From the NCBI GenBank assembly GCA_949283575.1, contig CASDSU010000028.1, positions 316,849 to 380,848 of the forward strand: a DNA stretch of 64,000 nucleotides, written 5' to 3'. The position numbers were made by a program, and so were the translations under genes. Each line of letters begins with the position of its first letter. Position 1 is the stretch's first letter. The notes beneath the pieces are model-generated. The model was not told the DNA's origin. It ran no database searches and saw only the letters and a program-made list of their open reading frames with translations. Source of the DNA: an uncultured Eubacteriales bacterium. GTDB lineage: Bacteria > Bacillota > Clostridia > TANB77 > UBA1234. This document shows, piece by piece, positions 14,996-27,732 of this stretch.

Positions 14996-15436
14996 TTATT
15001 TGAACTTAATTTTCTCTATTCTTTTGTACTTTCCAGTATAATAATCAACAACATAAGGTGCTGTTATTCCTTTATATGCAGTAGCACTCGAATCACCTGT
15101 TTTATCACGAATAATTGCTAGCGCACCATCTTCTTCTCCGCCTGGAATAAGATAATAATTTGTTCCATATTCATTTTCTTCCTCATCAATCACCTCAATA
15201 GAACCATCTACCAAAGCATACCCAGTTATTATATTCTTATCAGTAATTGCATTCGTTAGCAGAGCTCGTATTTTCTCATTATCCTCAAAAATAGTAGCTT
15301 CATTTCTAGCATCAACAGAATCATCAATTATTTCTGTTGATGTTCCAAGTGCAATAGCAGCAATAATAAACATTACAACTATTGTTATTACAAGCGTTGT
15401 TATTGAAATACCCGAATTATTTTTTAATCTCTTCAT
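14996..15436 (-). CDS. Pilin-like protein
   Basis: This 146-residue protein begins MKRLKNNSGISITTLVITIVVMFIIAAIA in outline: a basic leader, Gly, then a long hydrophobic helix, as in class III (prepilin-type) signals. The usual Glu5 is replaced by Thr. The remainder is a small soluble domain ending TGKYKRIEKIKFK. Its start overlaps the end of the preceding small membrane protein gene by 20 bases, implying translational coupling. The same leader type occurs in the giant protein at 57.5 kb. Confidence 0.7.
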   Translation of the reverse strand: MKRLKNNSGISITTLVITIVVMFIIAAIALGTSTEIIDDSVDARNEATIFEDNEKIRALLTNAITDKNIITGYALVDGSIEVIDEEENEYGTNYYLIPGGEEDGALAIIRDKTGDSSATAYKGITAPYVVDYYTGKYKRIEKIKFK

Positions 15437-15647
15437 TTGAAATTTCTCCTTTTTTCTTTTTTAATTTTCTTTTTATATACACAAAAACACCTATAGCAAC
15501 TGCAATTACTCCAGTTACAATTGTTGCAATTGTTCCTATCTTACCCTTTAAACTCCCTTCTGGTGGTTGAACACAATACGAAGGAACAACAGGCGGTATT
15601 TCCATCATTTCAACTATAGTTTCTTTCATAAGCATTTCTCTTTTCAC
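15417..15647 (-). CDS. Small single-pass membrane protein with Pro-rich N-terminus
   Basis: This protein has up to 76 residues, with an N-terminal segment containing IPPVVPSYCVQPPEG, one transmembrane helix (about residues 36-58) and a Lys-rich cytoplasmic tail. The start is uncertain: the ATG at 15647, or the ones at 15635 and 15629, are possible. It overlaps the pilin-like gene. The tetrapeptide VPSY also occurs in the lipoprotein coded on the other side of the radical SAM gene, which raises the possibility of a shared maturase. That link is speculation. Confidence 0.5.
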   Translation of the reverse strand: MKREMLMKETIVEMMEIPPVVPSYCVQPPEGSLKGKIGTIATIVTGVIAVAIGVFVYIKRKLKKKKGEISNEEIKK

Positions 15648-15710
15648 ACATATATATGATTATTATATTGCAATAGAAGTATTTTGAAAAGATACATAAT
15701 AGCATATTAC

Positions 15711-15739
15711 TAGACATTTTTTTTATACTTTAGTAGAAT
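15711..15739 (+). promoter_or_regulatory. Promoter of the radical SAM operon
   Basis: TAGACA (15711-15716), 17 bases, TAGAAT (15734-15739). The ATG at 15744 lies only four bases after the -10 box and so cannot be the start used from this promoter. This supports the downstream start at 15771. Confidence 0.6.
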
Positions 15740-15770
15740 TAATATGAGTATTTTATATAAGGAGATAAAT

Positions 15771-16859
15771 ATGTTTAAAGAAATCTATAAATTAGGAAAA
15801 CTTGAACTTTTAAAAAAATACAAAGAAAAAGAATATGAAGAACATCACCTTATCGATTTATTTTGGGAAACAACTTTAAATTGTAATGCAAAGTGCAAGC
15901 ACTGTGGAAGTTCAGCTGAAACAAAAAATTATCCTGATGAACTTACTACCGATGAAATAAAAGCAGGTTTTAAGCAAATAGCAGACGACTTCGATGCAAG
16001 TAAAATTCTTATAAATGTAACCGGCGGTGAACCTCTTGTTCGAAAAGATTTATTTGAAATCATGGAATACGCTGTAAGCCTTGGATTTCATTGGGGCATG
16101 ACTACAAACGGTATCTTATTAAATTCAGAAAACATTGAAAAATTGAAAAATGCCGGAATGGAAACCATTTCAATAAGTATTGATGGCTTGAAAGATACAC
16201 ACGATGAGTTTAGGGGCGTTCCAGGTTCATACGAAAAAATTATTGAAAATATAAAAAAATTACGCGAAGCAAACTTTGTAAAACATCTACAAGTCACTAC
16301 TGTTTTCAACAAAAGCAACATCCATCAATTAAATGAAATTTATGAAGTTATGTGTTCTCTTGACTTAGCATCTTGGAGGGTAGCATCAATAGATCCAATC
16401 GGTAGAGCAAAAGAGCATGATAATCTTATGCTCGATAAACAAGATTTCGAAAAACTTTTCAATTTCATAGTCGAAAAAAACAAAAAAGGAAAATTAGATA
16501 TTTCATATGGATGTCCAAGTTTTTTAGGATTAAAGTATGAAAATGATGTTCGAAATTATCTATTCTTTTGCAGAACAGGAATAAACATTGCAAGTATCCT
16601 TTACAACGGCGACTTATATGTTTGTCCAAATGTTCCACGAATGAAAAGATATGTACAAGGAAACATCAAAACAGATAATTTCAAAAAAGTTTGGGATACC
16701 AAATACAAAGAATTTAGAAATAATGAAAGAACATCTTGCGAATCTTGTCAAAAATGTGACTATTGGGATTACTGTCTAGGAGGTTCATTCCATACATGGA
16801 ACTTTGAGAAACAAGAACAAAATAAATGTGTTTATAAAATATTAAAGGAGGGAAAATAA
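15771..16859 (+). CDS. Radical SAM/SPASM maturase (rSAM/lipoprotein-type system)
   Basis: This 362-residue radical SAM enzyme has CNAKCKHC (Cys 38, 42, 45) for the SAM-binding 4Fe-4S cluster. NVTGGEPL and TTNGILL follow. A C-terminal SPASM region contains CRTGINIASILYNGDLYVCPN and CESCQKCDYWDYC for auxiliary clusters. Such enzymes modify ribosomal peptides or proteins. The adjacent downstream gene encodes a tiny lipoprotein, one base after the stop, and this pairing matches the rSAM/lipoprotein arrangement I recall from TIGRFAM-type families. The start at 15771 has AAGGAG 7 bases upstream. The modification itself is unknown. Confidence 0.85.
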   Translation: MFKEIYKLGKLELLKKYKEKEYEEHHLIDLFWETTLNCNAKCKHCGSSAETKNYPDELTTDEIKAGFKQIADDFDASKILINVTGGEPLVRKDLFEIMEYAVSLGFHWGMTTNGILLNSENIEKLKNAGMETISISIDGLKDTHDEFRGVPGSYEKIIENIKKLREANFVKHLQVTTVFNKSNIHQLNEIYEVMCSLDLASWRVASIDPIGRAKEHDNLMLDKQDFEKLFNFIVEKNKKGKLDISYGCPSFLGLKYENDVRNYLFFCRTGINIASILYNGDLYVCPNVPRMKRYVQGNIKTDNFKKVWDTKYKEFRNNERTSCESCQKCDYWDYCLGGSFHTWNFEKQEQNKCVYKILKEGK

Positions 16860-17084
16860 ATGAAAAAAATATTAAGATTCATTGGAATAATTTCGGCACT
16901 TATCCTTTCACTCTTTGGCATAACAGCTTGTTTTGATTATGGAATGACGGCATTATATGGTGTTCCATCTTATATGGAAGAAAATGAATATAACCCAAAT
17001 AATGAAAATAGCGAAAATGCTCCTCAAGATTTAGAAAAAATTAATAAATCTGGTGAAGAACTTCAAAATTCAGATATTTTATAA
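16860..17084 (+). CDS. Small putative lipoprotein, likely substrate of the radical SAM enzyme
   Basis: This 74-residue precursor has a basic start, a hydrophobic segment and a lipobox LFGITAC (Cys 24). Directly after the lipidated Cys comes FDYGMTALYGVPSY, then an Asn/Glu-rich tail. The short aromatic/Gly/Pro block next to the lipid anchor is what the rSAM-associated lipoprotein families share (recalled, not searched). The gene begins one base after the maturase stop, with GGAGG in the maturase end, so it is in the same operon. Confidence 0.75.
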   Translation: MKKILRFIGIISALILSLFGITACFDYGMTALYGVPSYMEENEYNPNNENSENAPQDLEKINKSGEELQNSDIL

Positions 17085-17163: not shown

Positions 17164-17239
17164 CGGGGTGTGGCTCAGTTGGTAGAGTACGTGGTTTGGG
17201 ACCATGGGGCCGGAGGTTCGAGTCCTCTCACCCCGACCA
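17164..17239 (+). tRNA. tRNA-Pro (TGG anticodon)
   Basis: The acceptor stem CGGGGTG pairs with CACCCCG, the anticodon loop TTTGGGA gives TGG, the T loop is GGTTCGAGTCC, and CCA is encoded. Its 3' end is the apparent integration site of the element to its right. Confidence 0.95.
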
Positions 17240-17241
17240 TT
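17228..17241 (+). repeat. Left attachment site core
   Basis: TCACCCCGACCATT is the end of tRNA-Pro plus two bases. It matches the right-hand copy at 27884-27897 with one mismatch. Confidence 0.6.
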
Positions 17242-17385
17242 TTTTACCCTTTTTCAAGGATACGGATAAGAATTTGAGAAAATTCTAAAAACATGAATAC
17301 CGCTATAATCAAGGAATTAAGTTGATTATGGCGGTATTTTTTAATTTCTATAAATATCTAAAAATTCCTCAAAATATCAATTTTG

Positions 17386-17439
17386 TTTCACGAATTGATT
17401 TCACGAATTTCGAAGTAAAATTTCACGAAATTTCACGAA
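17386..17439 (+). repeat. Four TTTCACGAA direct repeats (left end)
   Basis: Copies lie at 17386-17394, 17399-17407, 17421-17429 and 17431-17439. Two further copies lie near the right end at 27800-27820 with the same composite spacing. They could be integrase arm sites or iterons for the RepA-like protein. Confidence 0.6.
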
Positions 17440-17493
17440 TCTTTAAATCTAAGTATTTATGCTTCTTTAAGCGAAATGAAAGGAGCAATAAAT

Positions 17494-18081
17494 ATGGCAT
17501 TTCTAGCCTATAAAGCAAATGAATGCTTTAACCATCAATATATCAAAATTCCAAAAGACCTATTCATTAACCCACTTTATAAACATTTAAATTCAGATAG
17601 CAAGATAATATACGGCTTTTTGCTAGACAGACTTAGTTTGTCAATTAAAAATAATTGGATAGATGAAAAAACTGGTAATGTTTATCTAATTTTCACTAGA
17701 AAGAAAATCCAAGAACTGTTACATTTATCAGATAAAACAGTTACTAAAGCTTTTAAGGAACTAAAAGCTTGCGAGCTAATCTACGAAAAAAGGCAGCAAT
17801 GCTCAAAGCCAAACATTATTTACATAGCTAAAATAAAACCTTATTTTGGTAATTCTGCTCAGAGCCGTAAAAATTACGATTCTGAACACGGAAATTCTAC
17901 GACTCCAGAGTCGGAAAATTTACGACCTAATAAGACTAATAATAGTAAAACTAATATAGATAATAATTTTAACTTTAAAAATTTCGATAATAGATTTAGA
18001 GATACCACAGGTCAATATGAAAACTTAGATAGATTCCTGGCAAATGCAAATGATTTTATAAAAAATGAAGGAGGACTTTAA
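17494..18081 (+). CDS. RepA_N-type replication initiator-like protein
   Basis: This 195-residue protein has an N-terminal region YIKIPKDLFINPLYKHLNSD and a winged-helix part with FTRKKIQELLHLSDKTVTKAF, similar to the N-terminal domain of RepA proteins of Gram-positive plasmids and integrative elements. The C-terminal part is polar and low in complexity. The ATG at 17494 has AAAGGAG 8 bases before it. It is the first gene inside the element and sits next to the TTTCACGAA repeats. It may support replication of the excised circle, or regulate. Confidence 0.7.
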   Translation: MAFLAYKANECFNHQYIKIPKDLFINPLYKHLNSDSKIIYGFLLDRLSLSIKNNWIDEKTGNVYLIFTRKKIQELLHLSDKTVTKAFKELKACELIYEKRQQCSKPNIIYIAKIKPYFGNSAQSRKNYDSEHGNSTTPESENLRPNKTNNSKTNIDNNFNFKNFDNRFRDTTGQYENLDRFLANANDFIKNEGGL

Positions 18082-18082
18082 A

Positions 18083-18436
18083 ATGGATTTAGAATATGTA
18101 AAAAGAGGCGATTACTACTTACCTAATCTTGAATTGCAAAACAAAAATAAGAGAGTAAATTTAGGAAAATATGCAAGGCTAAGAGAAAACTTTTTAAGAA
18201 ATTCAAAGCCTGGATTTTTTAATCACTTGGTAATGAAAGAAGAATTAATTGATCACTTAATCGAAATAAATAATCAAGCTTGTAGCTATTTAGAAACACT
18301 TATAAAACAACTTGCTGAAGAAGAAAATGTTACAGAAAATCTAAAAGCTACTAATCAACTTGAATGGATACAGAAGATGAATAATATTAAAAATCGAGCT
18401 GAAGAAATCGTGCTTAATGAACTAATTTATAATTAA
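18083..18436 (+). CDS. tnpV: TnpV-like transposon-encoded protein
   Basis: This 117-residue protein resembles TnpV of clostridial mobile elements: DYYLPNLEL, LGKYARLRENFL, LIDHLIEINNQACSYLE and the ending WIQKMNNIKNRAEEIVLNEL. Its function is not established. The start at 18083 follows AAGGAGG. It begins one base after the RepA-like stop, so the two are coupled. Confidence 0.75.
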   Translation: MDLEYVKRGDYYLPNLELQNKNKRVNLGKYARLRENFLRNSKPGFFNHLVMKEELIDHLIEINNQACSYLETLIKQLAEEENVTENLKATNQLEWIQKMNNIKNRAEEIVLNELIYN

Positions 18437-18464
18437 AATTTCAAAAGAAATGAGGTATAAACTA

Positions 18465-18788
18465 ATGAATGAATTTGAATTGTTTAATATAGAAAATATA
18501 GATTTTAGTGAGATGATTGATAAGGCAAAAGTCACCTTACGAAACAAGAATCTTGAATATAAAAACTTACAAAATGAAGTAGCAAAAATAATGGATAGCC
18601 ATCCAAATTTACAATTAATTTGTGAAGATGATGAGGATATAACTTTAAATAAAAATGATAGCAAGATGCTTCAAAAACTTTTCAATTTAAACCTCGAAAT
18701 TAAAAATTTTGAAGAGCAAGCAATCTTCTTTTTAGGAGGTCGAGAAGCCTACTTTTATTTTAAAAACATTGGAATTTTGAAAGAGTAA
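18465..18788 (+). CDS. Hypothetical element protein
   Basis: This 107-residue, acidic, mainly helical protein (FNIENIDFSEMIDKAK; NLQNEVAKIMDSHPNLQLI) has no family I can name. A GAGG site lies 10 bases before the ATG. It lies 28 bases after tnpV and ends the plus-strand operon of the element before a terminator. Confidence 0.6.
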   Translation: MNEFELFNIENIDFSEMIDKAKVTLRNKNLEYKNLQNEVAKIMDSHPNLQLICEDDEDITLNKNDSKMLQKLFNLNLEIKNFEEQAIFFLGGREAYFYFKNIGILKE

Positions 18789-18830
18789 ATCACAAAAATT
18801 TTAGTAAAAATTTTGTGAACTTAGATAAAA

Positions 18831-18884
18831 AACGAGCTGAATTTTGGAAGGAAATTTTTAACCTCCAAAAATCAGCTCTTTTTA
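18831..18884 (+). terminator. Rho-independent terminator
   Basis: CGAGCTGA-TTTTGGA pairs with TCCAAAAATCAGCTC and is followed by TTTTT. It closes the rep-tnpV operon. Confidence 0.75.
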
Positions 18885-19003
18885 AATTTGCAATTTTTAT
18901 TACATAGCAAGCACTGAATTGGTAATACTTCCAATTCAGAAAATGGAGCAAAAGCCCCAATCCCCATTTAGAAAAAATTCTACTATAAGTTTCTCTCTTT
19001 AAT

Positions 19004-21532
19004 TTATATCACAACTAATTGCTTCATTTTATTTTTTACTTTTTCATATATTTCCAATTCTTCTTCGGGTGCAACTTCAAAAGTAACAAATAAAGCATAT
19101 TTGACTGCATCTTTATTTTTATCAGCATCTTCCCTACAATTTATTTTTATTTTTAGTTCATCATTTTCATCCCAGATTCCTGCTTTCTCACTTTCAAAAA
19201 TTTCATGTTGAAGCGTTCCTTTTTTTACTTTTTGCCATTCAGTATTTTGTCTTTCCATATAAAATTTTTCTAAATTTTCAACATCAAACCAAAGTTGTGT
19301 TTGCCTATATGCTTGTTTAGCTGAATTCGTTGGTGAAATGTATGCTAAAGTTACTGTTAATCTTTTTCTCATTGTTTTATTTGCAAAGTTAAAAGGTAGT
19401 GGCAAATTATAGACATGAGCATTATCTACATTTAAGCTTCCCATACCAATCAGCGTCACTCTATTTTTAGCACATTCTTTAACTTTTTCTATATCAGGAA
19501 TACCATTTCCAAGCCATCTAAACAATTTTTTATCTGTTTCTTCTACATAAGAACTTAAAAACTCTTTTACGTTATCCCAAGATGCTCCGTGCGTGAGCAT
19601 CGCTTTTATTAAAACTGCTATATACTCTTGTGGAAAATTAACATTATCTTGCATAAAAATTTCTTTTAAAATTTCGTAGCATTTTCCTGCTTCATGAGTA
19701 ATTTGTGCTGTTGCATCACTTGTTCCCCAAGTATAAGCTATTCCATCTAAATCTCCGTTTCTATTTGGTGCAGCCACCTTACATCCAGGCTCATAAAAAT
19801 TATTCAACCATTTAATCTGTCTTCTTGCTATATCTTCTATTAATAATTTTCTACCACCGTAATAAAACAAATCTGGTTTTATCATTCTATTATATCCCAA
19901 TCCAAAGCTAGATATAGGACTAGGTAATCCTCTATTAATTCCAAAAATTTGTCTTTCACTTTCAAACGTGTTACAAAAATCATCATATAATGCTCCAACT
20001 GTAATATTATTAATTGATTCTGCTGGAGAAAGAATTTTATAATTCGACTTATTTTTTTGTATTAAATCAAATACAATTCGACTACGTTCACTAATGTTTT
20101 TCCCTTTAAAGATTGTAAATTTTTCCTCAATAGTACTTAGACTTTTTTGGTTTCCAGCGCTTATTATGAATAATATATCATATTTATAACTAAGCCAATC
20201 TAGTAGCCTAGCAAGAGGACTGATTGATGTCCCTAGTTGTCTTGAAGTATCACCAAGTGATAAATTAATAATCCTAACACTTGGAGCTATCGGTTCTTCA
20301 TTATTTTCACCTTCAATCATTCTTTTAACACTTCTTAATATTAAATCTACTAATAATCTATCAGTTGGTACTACTTCATCAACATAGTTATCTCCAGATT
20401 TATTTGGTTTTAAAATAGGTCTTATATATAGTTTTTCTTCTAACGCACTATCATTCCTATTTAAATCTCCATATATAATCAACGATGCCATAGAAGTTCC
20501 ATGAATTCTATCTTTTACTTGATAAAACTTCTCATATTCATCAGGATCATCAATTATCAACCTATCTTTTAATTGTTGATGGTTTTGCATCGGGAATCCA
20601 TCAAATAAGGCAATTATTGGTTCTTCATTTATATTAGTTTTATTAACTTCAAATTTCCTATCACTTCTAATATCCGAAAGTGTATTCTCAAAGTTTGCTT
20701 GACATGCAGGTCGGAAGAACATAATATTATCTACGTTAGCTAACTTAACTTCTTTATAATTTAAAACTAATTGTTCAATCTTTTCTCTAGGTAATTTAAC
20801 TAATATAGCATTATATAAAATTTCTTCAATACATATACTCGATACAATTTCGCCTTCCATATCAGTTATAATATCTCTAAGTTCTTGTTGTATTTCATCT
20901 CTTTTCGATTTATCTTTTCTGTAGAACAATTCAATTTCAAAAGGAACAAATTGATTTCCATCAATTTGCAAAGATTCTTTCCAATATTCTAAAACTTTTG
21001 TATCGTAAATTCGATCACTAGCATCCCATATTCTCACATTTTTTAATAAAGCAAACACTTCTTTTAATGGTCCTAGGCCTCTTTCAAATTTATACTGTTT
21101 ATCTTCTGAGTACTTTTTCCATGCAGATATAACTTGTTGTATGGCTTTTTGATTACTCATGATGCAATATACTCTTCCATTTAATTCCCTTTTTGAATCA
21201 TCATTGCTATAAAAATCTTCATCTGGTTCTATATCGTTAACTTCCCAATCTAAAATCCACTCTAATCCATCAATTTTACTAACTGCCTTATAAAAGTTTC
21301 CAACATTCCCAATCACTTCAAAAACTAAAGCATATTCAGGATTAATTCCAGTCATCGTTTCTTGTAATACTAACCTTTTCTTTTCAAAAGTTTCTTGAAG
21401 CTTTTGAAAAGAAGGTTGCAATCTATTAAATTGTCTTGTTAAAGTTGGCTTATGTATCTCTGGATGAAAGCCTCGACTTTTATCTCTATAAACTTTTTCT
21501 GGTTCTGGAAATAATAATAATGGTCTATTCAT
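19004..21532 (-). CDS. Subtilase-family (S8) serine protease paired with AAA+ ATPase
   Basis: This 842-residue cytoplasmic protease has no signal peptide. Numbered from the ATG at 21532, the catalytic triad is Asp at about 311 (IALFDGFP), His at about 344 (RIHGTSMASL) and Ser at about 605 (YTWGTSDATAQITHE), with the oxyanion Asn in IISAGN (about 461). About 300 residues before the catalytic domain and 200 after it have no family I recognise. The ATG overlaps the stop of the ATPase gene, so the two are translationally coupled. Co-occurring S8 peptidase and AAA genes are known in defence contexts; I recall names such as IteS/IteA but cannot check them. Confidence 0.85.
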   Translation of the reverse strand: MNRPLLLFPEPEKVYRDKSRGFHPEIHKPTLTRQFNRLQPSFQKLQETFEKKRLVLQETMTGINPEYALVFEVIGNVGNFYKAVSKIDGLEWILDWEVNDIEPDEDFYSNDDSKRELNGRVYCIMSNQKAIQQVISAWKKYSEDKQYKFERGLGPLKEVFALLKNVRIWDASDRIYDTKVLEYWKESLQIDGNQFVPFEIELFYRKDKSKRDEIQQELRDIITDMEGEIVSSICIEEILYNAILVKLPREKIEQLVLNYKEVKLANVDNIMFFRPACQANFENTLSDIRSDRKFEVNKTNINEEPIIALFDGFPMQNHQQLKDRLIIDDPDEYEKFYQVKDRIHGTSMASLIIYGDLNRNDSALEEKLYIRPILKPNKSGDNYVDEVVPTDRLLVDLILRSVKRMIEGENNEEPIAPSVRIINLSLGDTSRQLGTSISPLARLLDWLSYKYDILFIISAGNQKSLSTIEEKFTIFKGKNISERSRIVFDLIQKNKSNYKILSPAESINNITVGALYDDFCNTFESERQIFGINRGLPSPISSFGLGYNRMIKPDLFYYGGRKLLIEDIARRQIKWLNNFYEPGCKVAAPNRNGDLDGIAYTWGTSDATAQITHEAGKCYEILKEIFMQDNVNFPQEYIAVLIKAMLTHGASWDNVKEFLSSYVEETDKKLFRWLGNGIPDIEKVKECAKNRVTLIGMGSLNVDNAHVYNLPLPFNFANKTMRKRLTVTLAYISPTNSAKQAYRQTQLWFDVENLEKFYMERQNTEWQKVKKGTLQHEIFESEKAGIWDENDELKIKINCREDADKNKDAVKYALFVTFEVAPEEELEIYEKVKNKMKQLVVI

Positions 21533-22541
21533 CAAAATTATCAACTTCTTTCTCTATTACTTCTGCTTTTACTTGCGCATCCCATAGGTTTAATTCTTCT
21601 TCCGTTATTCTTTTCGCACTTTTAATTGGCAAATTTAAAATATACCTTCTATATATAGATAATGCTAACTCTTCATTTTCAGCGAAACTAAATCCTTTCA
21701 TTCTTTCTGCTAATACACTTTTTGATACTCCAAATGAAAATTTCTTTTTCTTTTCAAATAAAGCATACCATTTCTCTAAGTCTTTTTTCTCCGGCTTCGG
21801 TAAATTTAATTTAATTTGAAATCTTCTCCAAGCTGCTCTATCTAATAAACTTTCATGATTGGTTGCACCAATTACAACTACATAACTAGGTAAAGAATCA
21901 ATATGTAATAATAATGAACTAACCACTCTTTTTATTTCACCAGTTTCATGTTTATCTCCACGTTCTTTTCCTAAAGTTTCAAACTCATCAAAAAATAAAA
22001 CGCATTGTCTAGCACTTGCATATTCAATAAGTCTTGAAAGTCTATTAGCCGTTTCCCCCAAATAAGAACCAATTATACTTTCATACTTAACAGTTAAAAG
22101 TGGTACAGACAATTCTTGTGCTATAGCTTCTGCTAATGACGTTTTTCCATTACCCGGAGGTCCAACTAATAATATTTTATTTCTAGGTTCAACCCCATAA
22201 GACCTAAGTATATCTGAACGCAATTGCTCTTCAATTATCTGATTGCAACTTTCTCTCACATTTTTGGGTAAAAGTAAATCATCTAATCTTTTTTCTGGCA
22301 TTTTTTCAATTGCTAAATTTTGTTCAACTATATTACTTTTTGTACAAGAATAATGTATATTTGTATTTCTAATATCATTATATTTGTGATTTCTTAATGT
22401 TTCTTCAATTTTATTAGCAAACACATTATGTTGTTTAGCTCTTTCTTCTGCGCAAATAGCCTCTACTGATTTTATAAAATTGTTTTTATCATTATTCAAG
22501 CCATATTTTATTATATTAAAAATTAAATCTGATCTTGCCAT
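21525..22541 (-). CDS. AAA+ ATPase partner of the subtilase
   Basis: This 338-residue AAA protein has Walker A VGPPGNGKTS (127-136), Walker B VLFFDEFE (181-188), a sensor-1 GATNHESLLDRAAWRRF and arginine fingers near 239-240. The first 80 residues form a helical N-terminal region. It resembles the single-ring AAA proteins that unfold or remodel substrates. The gene is first in the pair with the protease (8-base overlap), following AGGGGATG upstream of ATG. A natural reading is ATP-driven feeding or activation of the protease. That is inference. Confidence 0.85.
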   Translation of the reverse strand: MARSDLIFNIIKYGLNNDKNNFIKSVEAICAEERAKQHNVFANKIEETLRNHKYNDIRNTNIHYSCTKSNIVEQNLAIEKMPEKRLDDLLLPKNVRESCNQIIEEQLRSDILRSYGVEPRNKILLVGPPGNGKTSLAEAIAQELSVPLLTVKYESIIGSYLGETANRLSRLIEYASARQCVLFFDEFETLGKERGDKHETGEIKRVVSSLLLHIDSLPSYVVVIGATNHESLLDRAAWRRFQIKLNLPKPEKKDLEKWYALFEKKKKFSFGVSKSVLAERMKGFSFAENEELALSIYRRYILNLPIKSAKRITEEELNLWDAQVKAEVIEKEVDNFDE

Positions 22542-22601
22542 AAAAACATCCCCTTACGTATTTAAACTTTTTATTACATCTTGCATATTATTTTAAATTA
22601 C

Positions 22602-22815
22602 CTATTCTGTTTTTAATGCCTTAACTATATTCTCCGCTATTCTGTTTATAACAGGTACTACAACACTATTACCAGCTTGTTTGTATAATCTTGCATCACT
22701 CATATCTTTAGGTAATTCATATGTTTTTGGATACCCTTGTGCATAAAAACATTCAATAGGAGTTAATTTTCTAATTCCAAATTGTGTTTTTATTAATGGG
22801 ACATTATGTCCGGCC
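22602..22815 (-). pseudogene. DNA cytosine-C5 methyltransferase, C-terminal part (frameshifted)
   Basis: This frame encodes GHNVPLI then FGIRKLTPIECFYAQGYP and YKQAGNSVVVPVINRIAENI, which are motifs IX-X of C5 methyltransferases. It lacks a start and continues the upstream fragment after a single extra base near 22811-22815. Removing one C of GGCCGG on the minus strand restores MGEGGHNVPLI, the expected family sequence. Confidence 0.8.
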
Positions 22816-23571
22816 TTCTCCCATATTAGCTGTTAATGTAGGAACTAAATTACTTTGATTCTTTCTTACATATTTTCTTCTCCATTGGTAAACCGTATCA
22901 TCATCATCCATTTCAGAACTTAACATGTCATATATTTCTCCTTTGAATTTACCTGGAGTGTAATAATATTTTTCATCAACTTTATTTTCAAAATTAAAAA
23001 CATTCTTTATGGTATTCTTAAGTTCTATCGGTAATGGCATTTGAAAATTATCATAATCTTTCTTATCTCTAAAAGCTACAATATATATTCTTTCTCTATT
23101 TTGTGGAACATCTCCATATTCACAAGCGTTTAAAACTTGATATCTTATTTTGTCTTTATATCCAGCTTCTTCAAGTTTTTCAATAATTATTCTAAATGTT
23201 TTTCCTTTATCATGTCCAACAAGATTTTTTACATTTTCTAAAAATATAACTCTAGGTTTTCTAACTTTAAAAATTCTTTCCATCTCAAAGAATAAATCCC
23301 CAGTTTTATCGTCTTCAAAACCCTTTCTATAACCAGCTACTGAAAAAGATGTACAAGGAAAACCACCTACCATAATATCAAATTCCGGTATTTCTTCTAA
23401 TTTAACATCATGTATATCCCTACAATCAACTTTATGATTAAAATTCTTTTCATAAGTTTCTACTGCATATTTATCAAACTCATTTGCATACGCAACTTCA
23501 CAATTATTAGTTTGTATAAAGCCTAAATCTATTCCTCCAACACCTGCAAAAAGACTACAAATTTTGTACAT
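22804..23571 (-). CDS. DNA cytosine-C5 methyltransferase, N-terminal part (frameshifted)
   Basis: Methyltransferases of this class transfer a methyl group from SAM to C5 of cytosine in a target sequence. Motif I is SLFAGVGGIDLGF (6-18), motif IV GGFPCTSFSVAG carries the catalytic Cys at about 73, motif VI is ENVKNL (112), and motif VIII is QNRERIYIVAF. The start is the ATG at 23571 with AGGAGG 9 bases before it. The frame ends prematurely in GRT; the last 70 or so residues (motifs IX-X) lie in the next frame. The target sequence cannot be told. The next gene on the same strand, upstream, is the likely restriction partner. Confidence 0.85.
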   Translation of the reverse strand: MYKICSLFAGVGGIDLGFIQTNNCEVAYANEFDKYAVETYEKNFNHKVDCRDIHDVKLEEIPEFDIMVGGFPCTSFSVAGYRKGFEDDKTGDLFFEMERIFKVRKPRVIFLENVKNLVGHDKGKTFRIIIEKLEEAGYKDKIRYQVLNACEYGDVPQNRERIYIVAFRDKKDYDNFQMPLPIELKNTIKNVFNFENKVDEKYYYTPGKFKGEIYDMLSSEMDDDDTVYQWRRKYVRKNQSNLVPTLTANMGEGRT

Positions 23572-23641
23572 TTTATTATTCCTCCTTAACATTTTGCGGC
23601 ACGCCGCAGTTATTTTTTTCAAAGAATAGAATTTAAAAATT

Positions 23642-24802
23642 CTATTCTTTGTCTGTACTACTATCTTCGCTTAATAATTCTTCGTATGTTCCTATATTGG
23701 TAAAATCTATTTTATAGATTCTATCATCTATTTTTGTAAAGACTACTGAATCAACTCCAAATTTTTCTAGCATTTCATATGTTATTAAAGTTCCTTCTGG
23801 TAATTCAAAAACATCTCTCAAAAGCCATTTACCTAATTCATAATTAGGGTTACTCATTATTGCTTTACCATCAGCTTGACATACTTTAGCTGATAACATT
23901 TTACCATCTGGTAATGTTAGGGTAAATGATTCTTCTCTTGATGGGAAAAATCCGACACTTCTTTCTCTATCAAAAGCAGGATAAGGAATATATAGCTCAT
24001 TTGGATTTCGAACTCTTCCTCCTGCATTCCATTGATTTAATCCACTTTTTTCATGAACAATTTTTTCACCAGATGCAGTTGTAGAATATAACCTTAAACA
24101 TAATTGCTCATACTCTTTTCCTTTTTCATCAAGTATTTCTTTAACTTCTGATACAACACTTTCTTCACCGACTAACTTTTCAAGATATTCATATGGATCT
24201 TCCAGTATATTGACATCAAATGAATCTAATAAAGTCATTCCTTCAAAAGTCATATATAGTGTACTTTTACTAATATTAAAATGATATTCGTGCTTACCAT
24301 CATTAAAATAAATATTGGTACTTGAACCTTTATCTTTATTTAATTTTATATTTTCTATATCTATCATTTCAAAAGCATATTCATATATTTGCATTGCATT
24401 TGGTACTCTTTTTACTATGTGATATATCATTTCAGTAATTCCGTGAAGTTTCATAGTAATTCTTATACGCTCATTTCTATATTCAGCGATTTTTTGTATC
24501 ATTTCCTCTTTAAGTAAGCTCATATATGATGCTTTAAGTTTATTAAATTCTGCAACTTTTTGATTATCTGTATCTACCCAAGTTTTTAATCCAATTCCTG
24601 TTGTTACTTTTTGAGCATCTGCAGAGCAATCTTCTCTACTTAAATTTCTTGCTTCAAAATACTTGCAAAAAATATTTTCGTGACATCTGTAATAAAGAAA
24701 TGGTTTATCACTTTCTGAAAATAAATTTGACAAGCTACCAATTATCTTAAGCATTTTTTTGTAATTTTCTCTTTGGTTAGATGGTTGTTTATCATAAAAC
24801 AT
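23642..24802 (-). CDS. Probable type II restriction endonuclease (NgoFVII/B3-like C-terminus)
   Basis: This 386-residue protein is encoded next to the methyltransferase on the same strand. The C-terminal 140 residues contain GLNQWNAGGRVRNPNELY, PAFDRERSVGFFPSREESF, ADGKAIMSNPN and KWLLRDVFELPEGTLITYE. I associate these with the B3-like DNA-recognition domain of NgoFVII-type restriction enzymes (recalled, not searched). The N-terminal part has a Cys/His cluster (YYRCHENIFCKYFEARN) and long helices; I cannot place a catalytic motif with confidence. It would cut the sequence that the C5 methyltransferase protects. Confidence 0.6.
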   Translation of the reverse strand: MFYDKQPSNQRENYKKMLKIIGSLSNLFSESDKPFLYYRCHENIFCKYFEARNLSREDCSADAQKVTTGIGLKTWVDTDNQKVAEFNKLKASYMSLLKEEMIQKIAEYRNERIRITMKLHGITEMIYHIVKRVPNAMQIYEYAFEMIDIENIKLNKDKGSSTNIYFNDGKHEYHFNISKSTLYMTFEGMTLLDSFDVNILEDPYEYLEKLVGEESVVSEVKEILDEKGKEYEQLCLRLYSTTASGEKIVHEKSGLNQWNAGGRVRNPNELYIPYPAFDRERSVGFFPSREESFTLTLPDGKMLSAKVCQADGKAIMSNPNYELGKWLLRDVFELPEGTLITYEMLEKFGVDSVVFTKIDDRIYKIDFTNIGTYEELLSEDSSTDKE

Positions 24803-24880
24803 AATTTCTCACCTTCAAAATAAATTTAAAAATTTTTTCATTTATGCCTTTAATATTTTATCATAAGTATAGTTCTCTTA

Positions 24881-25714
24881 CTATGTATTTTTACTCCTAA
24901 ACTTATAAACGTTCGCCTTGTTCTTACAAGCTGGTATATCGTACTCAGCTTTTGGATTTACTGCCAAAAATGGCTTATCGCAATATCTACAAATCTTTAA
25001 TTTTCTTACTTCTGCCATAACTTCTGAAACGAATACAGCATCCATTGCATTTTTTAATGTTTCATATTTTAGAACTAACTCTTTTCCATTTTTACTTTCA
25101 AATAATGTTGCAAAATCGTTAGTATTTAATTCACTATCTTCTTCATTTTGAATTTGCATTAAATCTTCATATAGCTGCTTTGCATACTTTGTTATCATTT
25201 CCAACGGTTCTCCATAATCGTGTGAAAATGCAAAATTCATATTAATTAGCATCTTTGAATTTTCTGTAATTCTATTTGCTTTTATATTTTCTTTTGCCGT
25301 TACAATCTTATCTACAATATCTTGATTTAGTAAGTTTGGCATAAATATACGAATGTACGATATTACATCTGCTTTTATTAAATATTCATCTATCATTTTA
25401 TCTTCTTTCAAAACTATTTCATTATCTATAAAGTATAATTCGTTAACAGGAAAGTAATTTATAAAACCAAACAATCCATATTTACTTACAAAATCCATTA
25501 CTTGTCCTTCTACATCTATTTCATTGAAATAAACACTTTTTCCAACGTCTAATAACTCTATAAGTACATCTGTTACTTTTTCATTTATATTACTTTCTTG
25601 AATTTGAGCATTATCTGCTGGAAAAATATATTTTCTTTCTTCAATTTCTTTTATTACATACTCACTATACTTATATAGCTGTGAATCTTCCCCCATTGAA
25701 TAATTAAAATTCAT
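24881..25714 (-). CDS. Hypothetical protein with C-terminal zinc-ribbon-like motif
   Basis: This 277-residue protein has a helical body and ends with CRYCDKPFLAVNPKAEYDIP followed by a third Cys and a Lys/Arg-rich tail. The layout resembles CGNR-type zinc-binding ends seen in some DNA- or RNA-binding proteins. I cannot name the family. The start at 25714 is chosen because GGGGG lies 6 bases upstream. It is the first minus-strand gene of the defence cargo and may be its regulator, since a 14-base inverted repeat lies 47 bases before its start. Confidence 0.55.
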   Translation of the reverse strand: MNFNYSMGEDSQLYKYSEYVIKEIEERKYIFPADNAQIQESNINEKVTDVLIELLDVGKSVYFNEIDVEGQVMDFVSKYGLFGFINYFPVNELYFIDNEIVLKEDKMIDEYLIKADVISYIRIFMPNLLNQDIVDKIVTAKENIKANRITENSKMLINMNFAFSHDYGEPLEMITKYAKQLYEDLMQIQNEEDSELNTNDFATLFESKNGKELVLKYETLKNAMDAVFVSEVMAEVRKLKICRYCDKPFLAVNPKAEYDIPACKNKANVYKFRSKNT

Positions 25715-26137
25715 AAACATCCCCCAAAATTTAAAAAAACTCAAAAGTAATCATTGACATTTATAATTGATTACTATAAAATCTAGGTAATCAATTATAA
25801 ATAAAATAAATTACTAATTGATTAAAAAAGACCTCTTTTGTAACCTTTTTATCAATAATTAGATTACACTATGTCGTATAAAATTTCAATACTTAAAAAA
25901 ATATTTTTTCCTCTATCTATTGCTATCACTGATGTTTTTTGATTTATTTTTTTATTCAAAAAATTTTTCAGAAAAAATGTGTGTTTTGCATTTCTGAATG
26001 GATATTAATAATAGAGGACAAAAAAATAAAACTGGTTACAAAAATTTTATAAAAGGAGGTCTAAATTTTTCACATATTGTAAATCCAAATTTTAATTAAT
26101 GTCCTCGAAGAATTATTTAAAATTGGAGGAATGTACA
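25715..26137. other. Divergent intergenic region of the element
   Basis: It separates the minus-strand cargo from plus-strand xis-int. It contains a promoter-like TTGACA, a perfect inverted repeat and a third TAATTGATTA half site. I see no gene here. Confidence 0.6.
25754..25800. promoter_or_regulatory. Operator-like perfect inverted repeat with promoter
   Basis: TTATAATTGATTAC (25761-25774) is repeated in inverse at 25787-25800 after a 12-base spacer. TTGACA at 25754-25759 with TAAAAT 17 bases later overlaps it. A dimeric repressor site is likely. Confidence 0.6.
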
Positions 26138-26326
26138 ATGAACGAAGAAATCAAATTATACACAACAACAGACGTAAGAAAATTACTAAAGATTGGAAAT
26201 AAGAAATGTTTGGAGCTATTCCATAGTTCGGACTTTCCTAGTATCAAGATTGGCAAATCATTTTTTGTTAAAGCGGATTGCTTAAATGAATATTTAAGTC
26301 AAAAACGCATTTTCAAAAATAGCTAA
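26138..26326 (+). CDS. xis: Excisionase-like MerR-type DNA-binding protein
   Basis: This 62-residue protein is similar to the small excisionases and helix-turn-helix proteins of clostridial elements: YTTTDVRKLLKIGNKKCLEL and FPSIKIGKSFFVKADCL. It would bind near the attachment site and steer the integrase towards excision. The ATG at 26138 follows TTGGAGG; the upstream in-frame ATG at 26099 lacks a good site. It lies 23 bases before the integrase gene. Confidence 0.8.
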   Translation: MNEEIKLYTTTDVRKLLKIGNKKCLELFHSSDFPSIKIGKSFFVKADCLNEYLSQKRIFKNS

Positions 26327-26349
26327 TTTAGATAGCTAAGGAGGTTTTT

Positions 26350-27732
26350 ATGAAATTAGAAGGAATAACAGTGGGAACATACACAAATCGTAAGCTTAAA
26401 ACAAATCTGAAATTTCCAATAAAAAAAGTCTGTAAGAAATGTAAATCTATTTTTGACTGCAACAATAAAAAAGATATTAAAAGTTTAATAAAATGTCCAA
26501 AGTGTAAAGCTGATTTATATTATCAAAATCCTAACGATTACTATACTTCCAAGGTTTCAAAAGCCATTCTAAATCTAGGCAAGGATCTAAATAACAAACC
26601 TGTAAAGAAAACTTTTACTGGTAAAACTGAAGAAGAAGCTTTAAGAAAACTTTATGCTTATAAAGATAATCTTGAAAAGACAGAAGGTCCTATTATTTTA
26701 AACAGAATTGCAAATTTTACTTTAAGTGATATTATTAGACATTTAAAAGATGAAGCTTTAAAAATGGGCAAAATAAGCAAGAATACATACAAAACAAATA
26801 TAGCCTCACCTAAGAGATTGCAGAATCATAAACTAGCTTTTAAACCTGTAAATAAAGTTTCAAGAATGGATATTTTAAGCTATTTTGAATCTATCAGAGA
26901 TTACTCTGATAGCACGATTAAAAAACAATTTGAAATTGTTGCTCAAGCATTTACATATGCTTATTATCAAAAATTGATTAACCAAAACTTCTTTGAGGGA
27001 TACAACAAAATTGGAATGCCAAGTAGCAATATAGTTACAGAGCCTATAACAGCTCTTACTATCGAAGAAGAAAAGACTTTAATTGAATACTTGGTAAAGA
27101 CTCCATACTCAATGTGCAAGCACAAATTCTTACTTCTACTTTTAATTAGCACAGGCTTGAGAATTGGAGAGGCTTTAGCAATATCAACTGATGATGTTGA
27201 TATAAAAAATGGGAAACTATCTATAAAAAGAACGTTGACCAAAGACGTTGACAACACAACTATTATCGGAACTACTGCAAAAACATATTCAGGCAAAAGA
27301 ACATTAAACTTAAATACTATGAGCCGAAAAGCATTAAATGGAGCTTTGCAACATATCATCAAGAATAAAAGCAATTTAATCTTCTGCAAAGATGATAAAA
27401 CTTTATACGAAGAAGGCTCAATCAATTCAGCACTTAAAAGAATATGTGTTAAATGCAATATTAGAGTTAAAAATTATCTAAATAAAAGTGGTAATGAAAC
27501 TGTTACAAGCGAAGTTCATACTCATATTTTGAGGCATACGTTTGCAACAAGATGTGTTGAAGCAAAAATTGCTCCTGCAGTTTTACAAAAACTTATGGGA
27601 CATACAGACATTGCTACAACAATGAAATACTATGTTAATGTAGATGACCATTTTGAAATATCTGAATACAAAAATGTTGAAAGTTATTTGGAAAAGAACG
27701 ATTTGTTCCTACTAATAAACGAAATTTCATAA
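26350..27732 (+). CDS. int: Tyrosine recombinase (integrase) with N-terminal zinc ribbon
   Basis: This 460-residue integrase joins and excises the element at tRNA-Pro. Catalytic residues are visible: Arg in TGLRIGEAL, HTHILRHTFATR (about 390-401), His in GHTDIATT and Tyr in MKYYVNV (about 427-428). The N-terminal 60 residues hold two CxxC pairs (CKKCKSIF, CPKCKAD), an unusual zinc-ribbon ahead of the arm-binding domain. The ATG has AAGGAGG upstream. It is adjacent to the right attachment site. Confidence 0.92.
   Translation: MKLEGITVGTYTNRKLKTNLKFPIKKVCKKCKSIFDCNNKKDIKSLIKCPKCKADLYYQNPNDYYTSKVSKAILNLGKDLNNKPVKKTFTGKTEEEALRKLYAYKDNLEKTEGPIILNRIANFTLSDIIRHLKDEALKMGKISKNTYKTNIASPKRLQNHKLAFKPVNKVSRMDILSYFESIRDYSDSTIKKQFEIVAQAFTYAYYQKLINQNFFEGYNKIGMPSSNIVTEPITALTIEEEKTLIEYLVKTPYSMCKHKFLLLLLISTGLRIGEALAISTDDVDIKNGKLSIKRTLTKDVDNTTIIGTTAKTYSGKRTLNLNTMSRKALNGALQHIIKNKSNLIFCKDDKTLYEEGSINSALKRICVKCNIRVKNYLNKSGNETVTSEVHTHILRHTFATRCVEAKIAPAVLQKLMGHTDIATTMKYYVNVDDHFEISEYKNVESYLEKNDLFLLINEIS

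Follow-up and report, generated by a model that had tools for sequence, protein, structure and literature searches.

A radical SAM/SPASM maturase in an uncultured Eubacteriales genome and a candidate Tyr-Gly substrate motif in the small anchored proteins encoded beside it

The splicease PlpXY excises a tyramine equivalent at XYG sites, naturally MYG and LYG, and the published account also gives the engineered tags GGPIRP-xYG-LPI and GAVAA-xYG-VVFPG (PMC10533398). A second kind of system is the orphan pair of the radical S-adenosylmethionine (SAM) family TIGR04133 and its lipoprotein partner TIGR04134: searches of an open-access library yielded no paper on TIGR04133, on its pairing with TIGR04134, on radical SAM enzymes with YGxP, or on YGPP with radical SAM, and part of what follows may already have been reported in Scott et al. 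(2022, Chem). Here we describe a locus in a 64,000-nucleotide stretch of an uncultured Eubacteriales genome (assembly GCA_949283575.1, contig CASDSU010000028.1, positions 316,849 to 380,848; hereafter the window) in which a radical SAM/SPASM maturase gene is followed by a small lipoprotein gene and faced by a divergent gene for a small membrane protein. Relatives of this maturase are accompanied by structurally unrelated proteins that share a Tyr-Gly motif with a nearby Pro, and the enzyme very probably acts on the adjacent proteins that carry it, the lipoprotein included.

A Tyr-Gly motif in proteins encoded beside the maturase

A named scan found 181 relatives of the maturase among 228 candidate stretches; the best 80 were kept and reduced to 67 representatives at <90% maturase identity. 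Their hosts are Clostridia, Bacilli, Lachnospiraceae and Oscillospiraceae, single bins of Chloroflexi, Deltaproteobacteria and Coriobacteriales, and the candidate phyla Shapirobacteria, Dojkabacteria, Gracilibacteria and Paceibacterota; viral copies encoded no relative. Within the order, 37 of 385 genomes carry the maturase at E ≤ 1e-75, and in none of the 385 does it score above the TIGR04133 cut-off.

Same-strand open reading frames (ORFs) of 40–260 amino acids within 150 nt of the maturase (79 ORFs at 58 loci) were compared with 234 distal ORFs lying >1500 nt away. YG.P came first among 596 k-mers, being present in 38 of 79 adjacent and 0 of 234 distal ORFs. The looser form Y[GA].{0,3}P occurs in 53 of 79 as compared to 10 of 234, and at 48 of the 67 loci; since the neighbouring ORFs are partly homologous to each other, P values for these counts overstate independence. 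Controls gave no comparable enrichment: the reversed motif was found in 6/79 adjacent and 8/234 distal ORFs, an F[GA] version in 13/79 and 16/234, and 500 rounds of residue shuffling of the 79 ORFs left a mean of 7.3 (maximum 16) with Y[GA].{0,3}P. If the Pro is allowed up to five residues on, 57 of the 67 representatives have a motif protein of ≤300 amino acids within 146 bp (48 within 60 nt), a few of them probably by chance. By these comparisons, the real motif is Tyr-Gly (or Tyr-Ala; Tyr-Cys in the membrane protein of the window) followed by Pro.

The best NCBIfam match of the maturase is TIGR04133 (rSAM_w_lipo), at 330.6 bits against a cut-off of 425, and the thresholds of Pfam Radical_SAM and SPASM are passed. 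Its CX3CX2C lies at residues 47–54 of the 371-residue ORF, and this triad and Cys257, 276, 294, 335, 338, 344 and 362 are invariant in 26 relatives. The predicted fold (pLDDT 89, pTM 0.89) is nearest to the solved folds of SkfB, SuiB, CteB and anSME, with BlsE in between; most of these are peptide- or protein-modifying enzymes. Three bona fide, plasmid-borne TIGR04134 lipoproteins read NELCEYGTPSADY, IPCEYGSPHANF and TSCYGMPENYY, that is, CEYGTP, CEYGSP and SCYGMP, and in both of our trees the enzymes paired with them branch within the clade that relatives of the window's maturase form. Because it falls below the cut-off while these named members nest among its relatives, the maturase is best classed as a divergent TIGR04133-type radical SAM/SPASM enzyme, belonging to a sister subfamily and not itself a named member. 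Nesting and common motif together argue that the orphan TIGR04133/TIGR04134 pair and the set from Clostridia and candidate phyla form one family.

The lipoprotein of the window matches TIGR04134 at 14.2 bits, its residues 3–37 aligning with positions 1–37 of the 150-position profile, and misses the cut-off of 39.8. Searching its own genome with this profile returned only the known lipoprotein, at 11.4 bits; a limit as lax as this also gives matches in 9 of 14 control genomes, and the score by itself therefore carries no weight. A lipobox and then YGxP, in a gene beside the maturase, are present as in TIGR04134 proteins, and by these features the protein is a miniature relative of TIGR04134. 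Within the family its relatives give weak matches only; one such match, in genome G002, was dropped because it showed no comparable lipoprotein. The first-pass annotation of the window had recognised a radical SAM/lipoprotein pairing of a known kind, and the profile matches bear this out as the TIGR04133/TIGR04134 kind.

To compare scaffolds independently of the motif, we clustered 92 neighbouring proteins after masking the motif (86 came from the 67 loci and six were added by hand: two from the window, one from the sister genome G009 described below and the three TIGR04134 proteins). They fell into 42 clusters, of which 23, holding 69 of the 92 proteins, have the motif in at least one member; a few singleton motif clusters, such as a long ORF with YAFP and an N-masked repeat, are probably chance. 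The carriers are unrelated: lipoproteins, proteins with a signal peptide and two helices, one-helix proteins with the N terminus outside, DUF805-type proteins and soluble proteins. The gene pairing, the motif and its recurrence on unrelated scaffolds thus emerge from comparison of loci. In G004 the maturase is flanked by two tandem lipoproteins (QAVYGPPP and QDVYGPPP) and by a membrane protein in which YGPPR occurs twice, so that one enzyme again has candidate substrates of two kinds. DUF805-type multi-helix proteins with one to six YGPP stand beside the maturase at L108, L113, L115, L118, L121 and L124, in Oscillospiraceae and Lachnospiraceae bins; the DUF805 Pfam match was checked for one of them.

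A profile of the YG membrane proteins, unmasked, matches 26 of the 385 genomes at E<1e-8; 25 of these have the maturase, always within 432 bp. This co-occurrence is partly circular, the profile having been built from maturase neighbours, and its informative part is that among the 347 genomes not counted as maturase-bearing (38 are so counted, including a frameshifted copy in G012) such a protein is confined to G093. With the limit relaxed to E≤1e-3, 78 genomes match, many by chance; at 1e-6, 12 of the 38 maturase genomes have no match and use other scaffolds or have none that was found. The G093 protein (L169, G093:C7) carries two ALYGPPP, the maturase was not found in that genome at E≤1e-10, and the protein is either an orphan substrate or sits at an assembly gap. 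In G012 (L018 7709-8802, G012:C9) the maturase is split by a frameshift in this assembly, and the adjacent membrane protein is intact, with KYGVIDP and KYGIFEP.

The motif is also found across a change of genetic code. At L048 the maturase gene has 13 in-frame TGA codons, at conserved Gly wherever compared, and in its tandem membrane proteins (GFYGVYRP, PMYGVPMD and TKYGVLSP) the motif Gly is TGA in all three, readable only with table 25. L048 (G120:C26) and L076 (CAMKSF010000026.1) are the same contig, in a bin assigned to Clostridia; it is either a contaminating contig of SR1/Gracilibacteria type or a transfer into a recoded host.

The lipoprotein and the membrane protein of the window

The lipoprotein reads MKK...FGITA-C24-FDYGMTALYGVPSY, followed by an acidic, Asn-rich tail. 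The membrane protein has PPVVPSYCVQPPEG before a single helix and a lysine-rich KRKLKKKKGE tail after it. In the window, then, the canonical YG is in the lipoprotein and the membrane protein has Y-C.

The sister genome G009 presents a different arrangement. Its maturase is 93% identical to that of the window and its membrane protein 57%, with IEVVPMYGVQPP where the window has PPVVPSYCVQPP, or MYGVQPP as compared to SYCVQPP. The G009 lipoprotein has been destroyed by a deletion that takes the lipobox and YGVP and spares the tail, leaving only the membrane protein, with YG. The comparison is of one genome pair that includes at least one metagenome bin; L049, being the same record as G009, adds no second witness. 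In the window's own 1.8 Mb genome, the YG-membrane-protein profile matches a single gene, that of the membrane protein described here (E 4.5e-4, weak as a score alone).

We considered whether this membrane protein is no substrate, its Y-C being decayed or a chance likeness, so that the lipoprotein alone would be modified. The Gly has been replaced by Cys, and an E value of 4.5e-4 is within the range of many unrelated genes of other genomes. Against this, the single match in the genome falls on this very gene, the G009 orthologue has MYGVQPP at the same place and is the only adjacent candidate there, and another small residue, Ala, follows the Tyr in 17 of 153 distinct sites across the family. 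We therefore regard this alternative as unlikely. Given the sister-genome variant, the maturase probably has, or once had, the divergent membrane protein as a second substrate; whether the Y-C form of the present day is still used is more doubtful. The proposal of the first-pass annotation that one enzyme has two substrates thus survives, on other grounds than the VPSY motif by which it had linked them.

That annotation had also coupled the membrane protein to the adjacent pilin-like gene and expected surface-exposed substrates. The pilin lies outside the module: in G012 a block of pilin, ttcA and phosphodiester glycosidase (NAGPA) genes occurs with neither the maturase nor the membrane protein beside it. 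The pilin's own EYG..IPGG was likewise rejected as a site, as it is conserved in G009 and, in altered form, in G012 regardless of an adjacent maturase. Nor would all substrates be surface-exposed: some candidates elsewhere look soluble, with repeats such as NIPQKVYGIPNP.

Candidate reaction and alternatives

Several lines of evidence point to spliceases as the model for the reaction: firstly, both engineered splicease tags fit Y[GA].{0,3}P; secondly, a Nostoc plasmid enzyme (annotated as nif11-class peptide radical SAM maturase 3) has on one side a Nif11 precursor with GGRGSIALYGLPPELF at its end and on the other a protein of 71 residues, and the precursor's IALYGLPPELF resembles TALYGVPSY of the window's lipoprotein; thirdly, YG occurs in 42 of the 234 distal control ORFs and YG with a Pro within four residues in only 3, so that a chance fit of all three splicease sites is unlikely, small as the sample is. 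We take the Nostoc arrangement to be the PlpA-PlpX-PlpY order, and IPR026482, the InterPro entry of PlpX, presumably equals TIGR04103. In a 53-row tree, the PlpX relatives together with an Agathobacter enzyme form the sister group of the TIGR04133-type clade (SH-aLRT 89), and a 40-row tree with long outgroup branches recovers the same grouping (UFBoot 87/SH-aLRT 66).

From these data we infer that the maturase would modify the Tyr-Gly site X-Y-[G/A]-[V/P/I]-x(0-2)-P in small proteins that are anchored in the membrane and encoded by adjacent genes. Its substrates in the window would be the lipoprotein, in which LYGVP is intact and close to the lipidated Cys, and, in an ancestor at least, the membrane protein (SYCVQP; MYGVQP in G009). 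A splicease-like cut would remove part of the Tyr, the tyramine equivalent C8H9NO; export and anchoring would come after modification, placing a reactive ketoamide just outside the membrane. According to a review, the splicease product is a moiety for protease inhibition (PMC11002830), and the products could therefore be tethered protease inhibitors. No leader recognition domain, leader protease or exporter was recognised in the flanking-ORF lists of the window, G009 and G004 (not every ORF of which was scanned against the libraries), and the system thus looks like modification of resident proteins rather than production of a secreted natural product. On balance, modification of YG sites in adjacent anchored proteins by tyramine excision is our preferred explanation as a whole, and we lean to a similar degree towards excision over a crosslink.

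To examine the Tyr without a search that presupposes it (a Y-based search finds Y), we masked the motif in a profile of 22 membrane proteins and ran this blind profile on 1639 ORFs of the fetched loci. Among 77 matches, 66 have Y[GAC]..P in the examined segment (80 YG and 6 YA sites), 4 have the motif earlier in the protein (L114, L082, L022 and L033), 3 have YG and no close Pro (L073, L167 and L043), and 4 lack the motif: a second tandem copy at L056, a truncated ORF at L064 and two in G105. In none of the 77 is the motif Tyr replaced by F, W or H. The two G105 proteins (L172, G105:C37:5440-6069) are tandem homologues of the YG membrane proteins; that genome has only a distant radical SAM match, at 63.5 bits, and has lost the maturase or never had it.

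This invariance bears on the possibility that the same enzyme acts on the same YG substrates by other chemistry, either an intrapeptide crosslink (from the Tyr ring to residue +2, cyclophane-like, or to Pro) or another Tyr-centred oxidation. The crosslinking maturases SuiB, SkfB and CteB are among the nearest solved folds, position +2 after the Tyr is mostly P, V or I, and other NCBIfam families matching the maturase include MftC, PapB and WgkB. However, cyclophane formers often accept several aromatics, the variable Tyr-Pro distance makes Pro an improbable fixed crosslink partner, and the small residue after the Tyr fits the splicease rule. Other chemistry is thus rather unlikely in our estimate. 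Alternatively, YG.P might be only a recognition or docking sequence, with the modified residue elsewhere; scaffolds so different that YG.P alone is common to them, and several copies of the motif in one protein, would suit a docking tag. We noticed no other common candidate residue, however, and YG itself is the reaction site in the published spliceases, which makes docking alone improbable.

The VPSY that the first-pass annotation proposed as a shared recognition or modification site has next to no chance of being one, its sharing being a coincidence: it is indeed in both small proteins and is their only common 4-mer, but some common 4-mer arises in 6.5% of 5000 residue-shuffle draws of the two, VPSY is in 0 of 79 adjacent ORFs as compared to 1 of 234 distal ones, the G009 membrane protein reads VPMY at that position, and its register relative to the motif Tyr differs between the two proteins, as it follows Tyr33 in the lipoprotein (L-Y33-G-V-P-S-Y38) and contains Tyr24 in the membrane protein (Y24-C-V-Q-P-P).

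A number of observations weigh against our preferred explanation. Some sites are YA or YC rather than YG, and the motif is missing or only divergent at L064, L098, L105, L106, L107, L110, L119, L120 and L123; the most distant of these loci may be outside the functional family. The maturase scores 126.9 bits with TIGR04103, the PlpX family, against a cut-off of 725, and ten families rank higher. Its identity to PlpX relatives (23.5–31%) is no higher than that to MftC (28–30%) or TIGR04053 (27–29%), and the sites shared only with PlpX (6) and only with MftC (5) are not decisive. The trees support the sister grouping moderately and include few outgroups. Next to these maturases we saw no PlpY-like gene, a genome-wide search not having been made, and an Azospirillum PlpX-like relative adjoins a protein with MYM, not YG.

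Two further loci concern the PlpX relatives. On an Agathobacter rectalis plasmid (NZ_CP143948.1, L134 2710-2913), an unannotated ORF ending SKNLFGPVMYGTGVRM (PVMYGTGVRM) lies directly upstream of a PlpX-related radical SAM gene and is a possible XYG precursor peptide. On an Aureibacter tunicatorum plasmid (L135 2156-2869), three DUF1843 proteins adjoin a PlpX-like enzyme; they begin, after the first residues, VLYAAGIREA, PMYAASIREA and QPYGAGIREA, and may be splicease-type substrates.

Locus layout and comparison with known systems

The features of the locus are collected in Table 1. The first-pass annotation had placed the maturase, the lipoprotein, the divergent membrane protein and the pilin overlap as we find them, apart from a one-base gap before the lipoprotein gene, where there is no spacer. 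The true maturase start is probably ATG 15771, because most relatives begin near MxKxIYKLG and AAGGAG stands just ahead of this codon. The lipoprotein ATG is preceded by AGGAGG inside the maturase gene; with no spacer between the genes, translational coupling from maturase to lipoprotein is likely. From 17164 to 27729, a tRNA-Pro gene is followed by a probable integrated element, and an integrase-like gene also lies beyond the tRNA copy of G009.

Table 1. Positions of the maturase module and its neighbours in the window
Feature	Position	Strand	Evidence or remark
Radical SAM/SPASM maturase ORF	15744..16859	+	371-aa ORF; probable start ATG 15771, 362 aa
Lipoprotein, 74 aa, candidate substrate 1	16860..17084	+	ATG 16860 abuts maturase stop codon
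Lipid-attachment Cys24, lipobox ITAC	16929..16931	+	sequence
D-Y-G (Y27-G28), second Tyr-Gly of lipoprotein, no Pro nearby	16935..16943	+	sequence
L-Y-G-V-P (Y33-G34), family motif in lipoprotein	16953..16967	+	motif enrichment; same core at Nostoc PlpX-family locus and in published splicease tags
Small membrane protein, 76 codons, candidate substrate 2, start codon uncertain	15417..15647	-	G009 orthologue, 57% identity; profile match
Y24-C25-V-Q-P28, degenerate YG site of membrane protein	15564..15578	-	G009: Y-G-V-Q-P
Pilin-like ORF, neighbour outside module	14996..15436	-	overlaps membrane protein gene by 20 bp
tRNA-Pro gene	17164-17239		follows the lipoprotein gene
RepA_N replication protein	17476-18078		
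IetA/IetS defence pair	19007-22541		
Type II restriction enzyme and cytosine methyltransferase	22807-24802		
Phage integrase	26350-27729		

For an orphan family of gut radical enzymes, these findings provide a specific substrate motif that can be tested, and a candidate reaction. There is about an even chance that the TIGR04133/TIGR04134 pairs, and with them the much larger unannotated set from candidate phyla and Firmicutes of the gut, are spliceases specialised on anchored proteins. If so, alpha-keto-beta-amino acids in lipoproteins, one- and two-helix membrane proteins and DUF805 proteins would be a standing modification with no released natural product, in a system carried across phyla and even across a change of genetic code. 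Electrophilic backbone ketoamides would then be present in the anchored proteins of gut bacteria that are common, some of them culturable, such as Parabacteroides (for example P. distasonis) and Phocaeicola, in which bona fide TIGR04133/TIGR04134 pairs occur, and the family would supply many natural splicing tags.

Compared with described systems, the locus is most like the TIGR04133/TIGR04134 pairs of Bacteroidota and Treponema, where the lipoprotein gene is likewise adjacent and three plasmid-borne members have YG[T/S/M]P at or just behind the region of the lipid Cys. Unlike those, the window's lipoprotein leaves the rest of the 150-position profile unmatched after the motif, and the opposite strand of the window encodes a further small protein, with one membrane helix. 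With the ranthipeptide, sactipeptide and streptide maturases (CteB, SkfB and SuiB) the maturase has the radical SAM/SPASM fold in common; their substrates typically have Cys-rich or WGK-type cores, whereas those of the window's family have neither. With PlpX/PlpY it has in common the XYG site and a Pro a few residues on (LYG in the window's lipoprotein, YG.P in relatives), and its clade is sister to theirs with moderate support. Unlike in that system, there is no Nif11/NHLP leader, the maturase has a predicted N-terminal helix (residues 3–33) that the aligned Nostoc PlpX relative lacks, and the candidate substrates are entire anchored proteins, next to which neither a protease nor a transporter is encoded.

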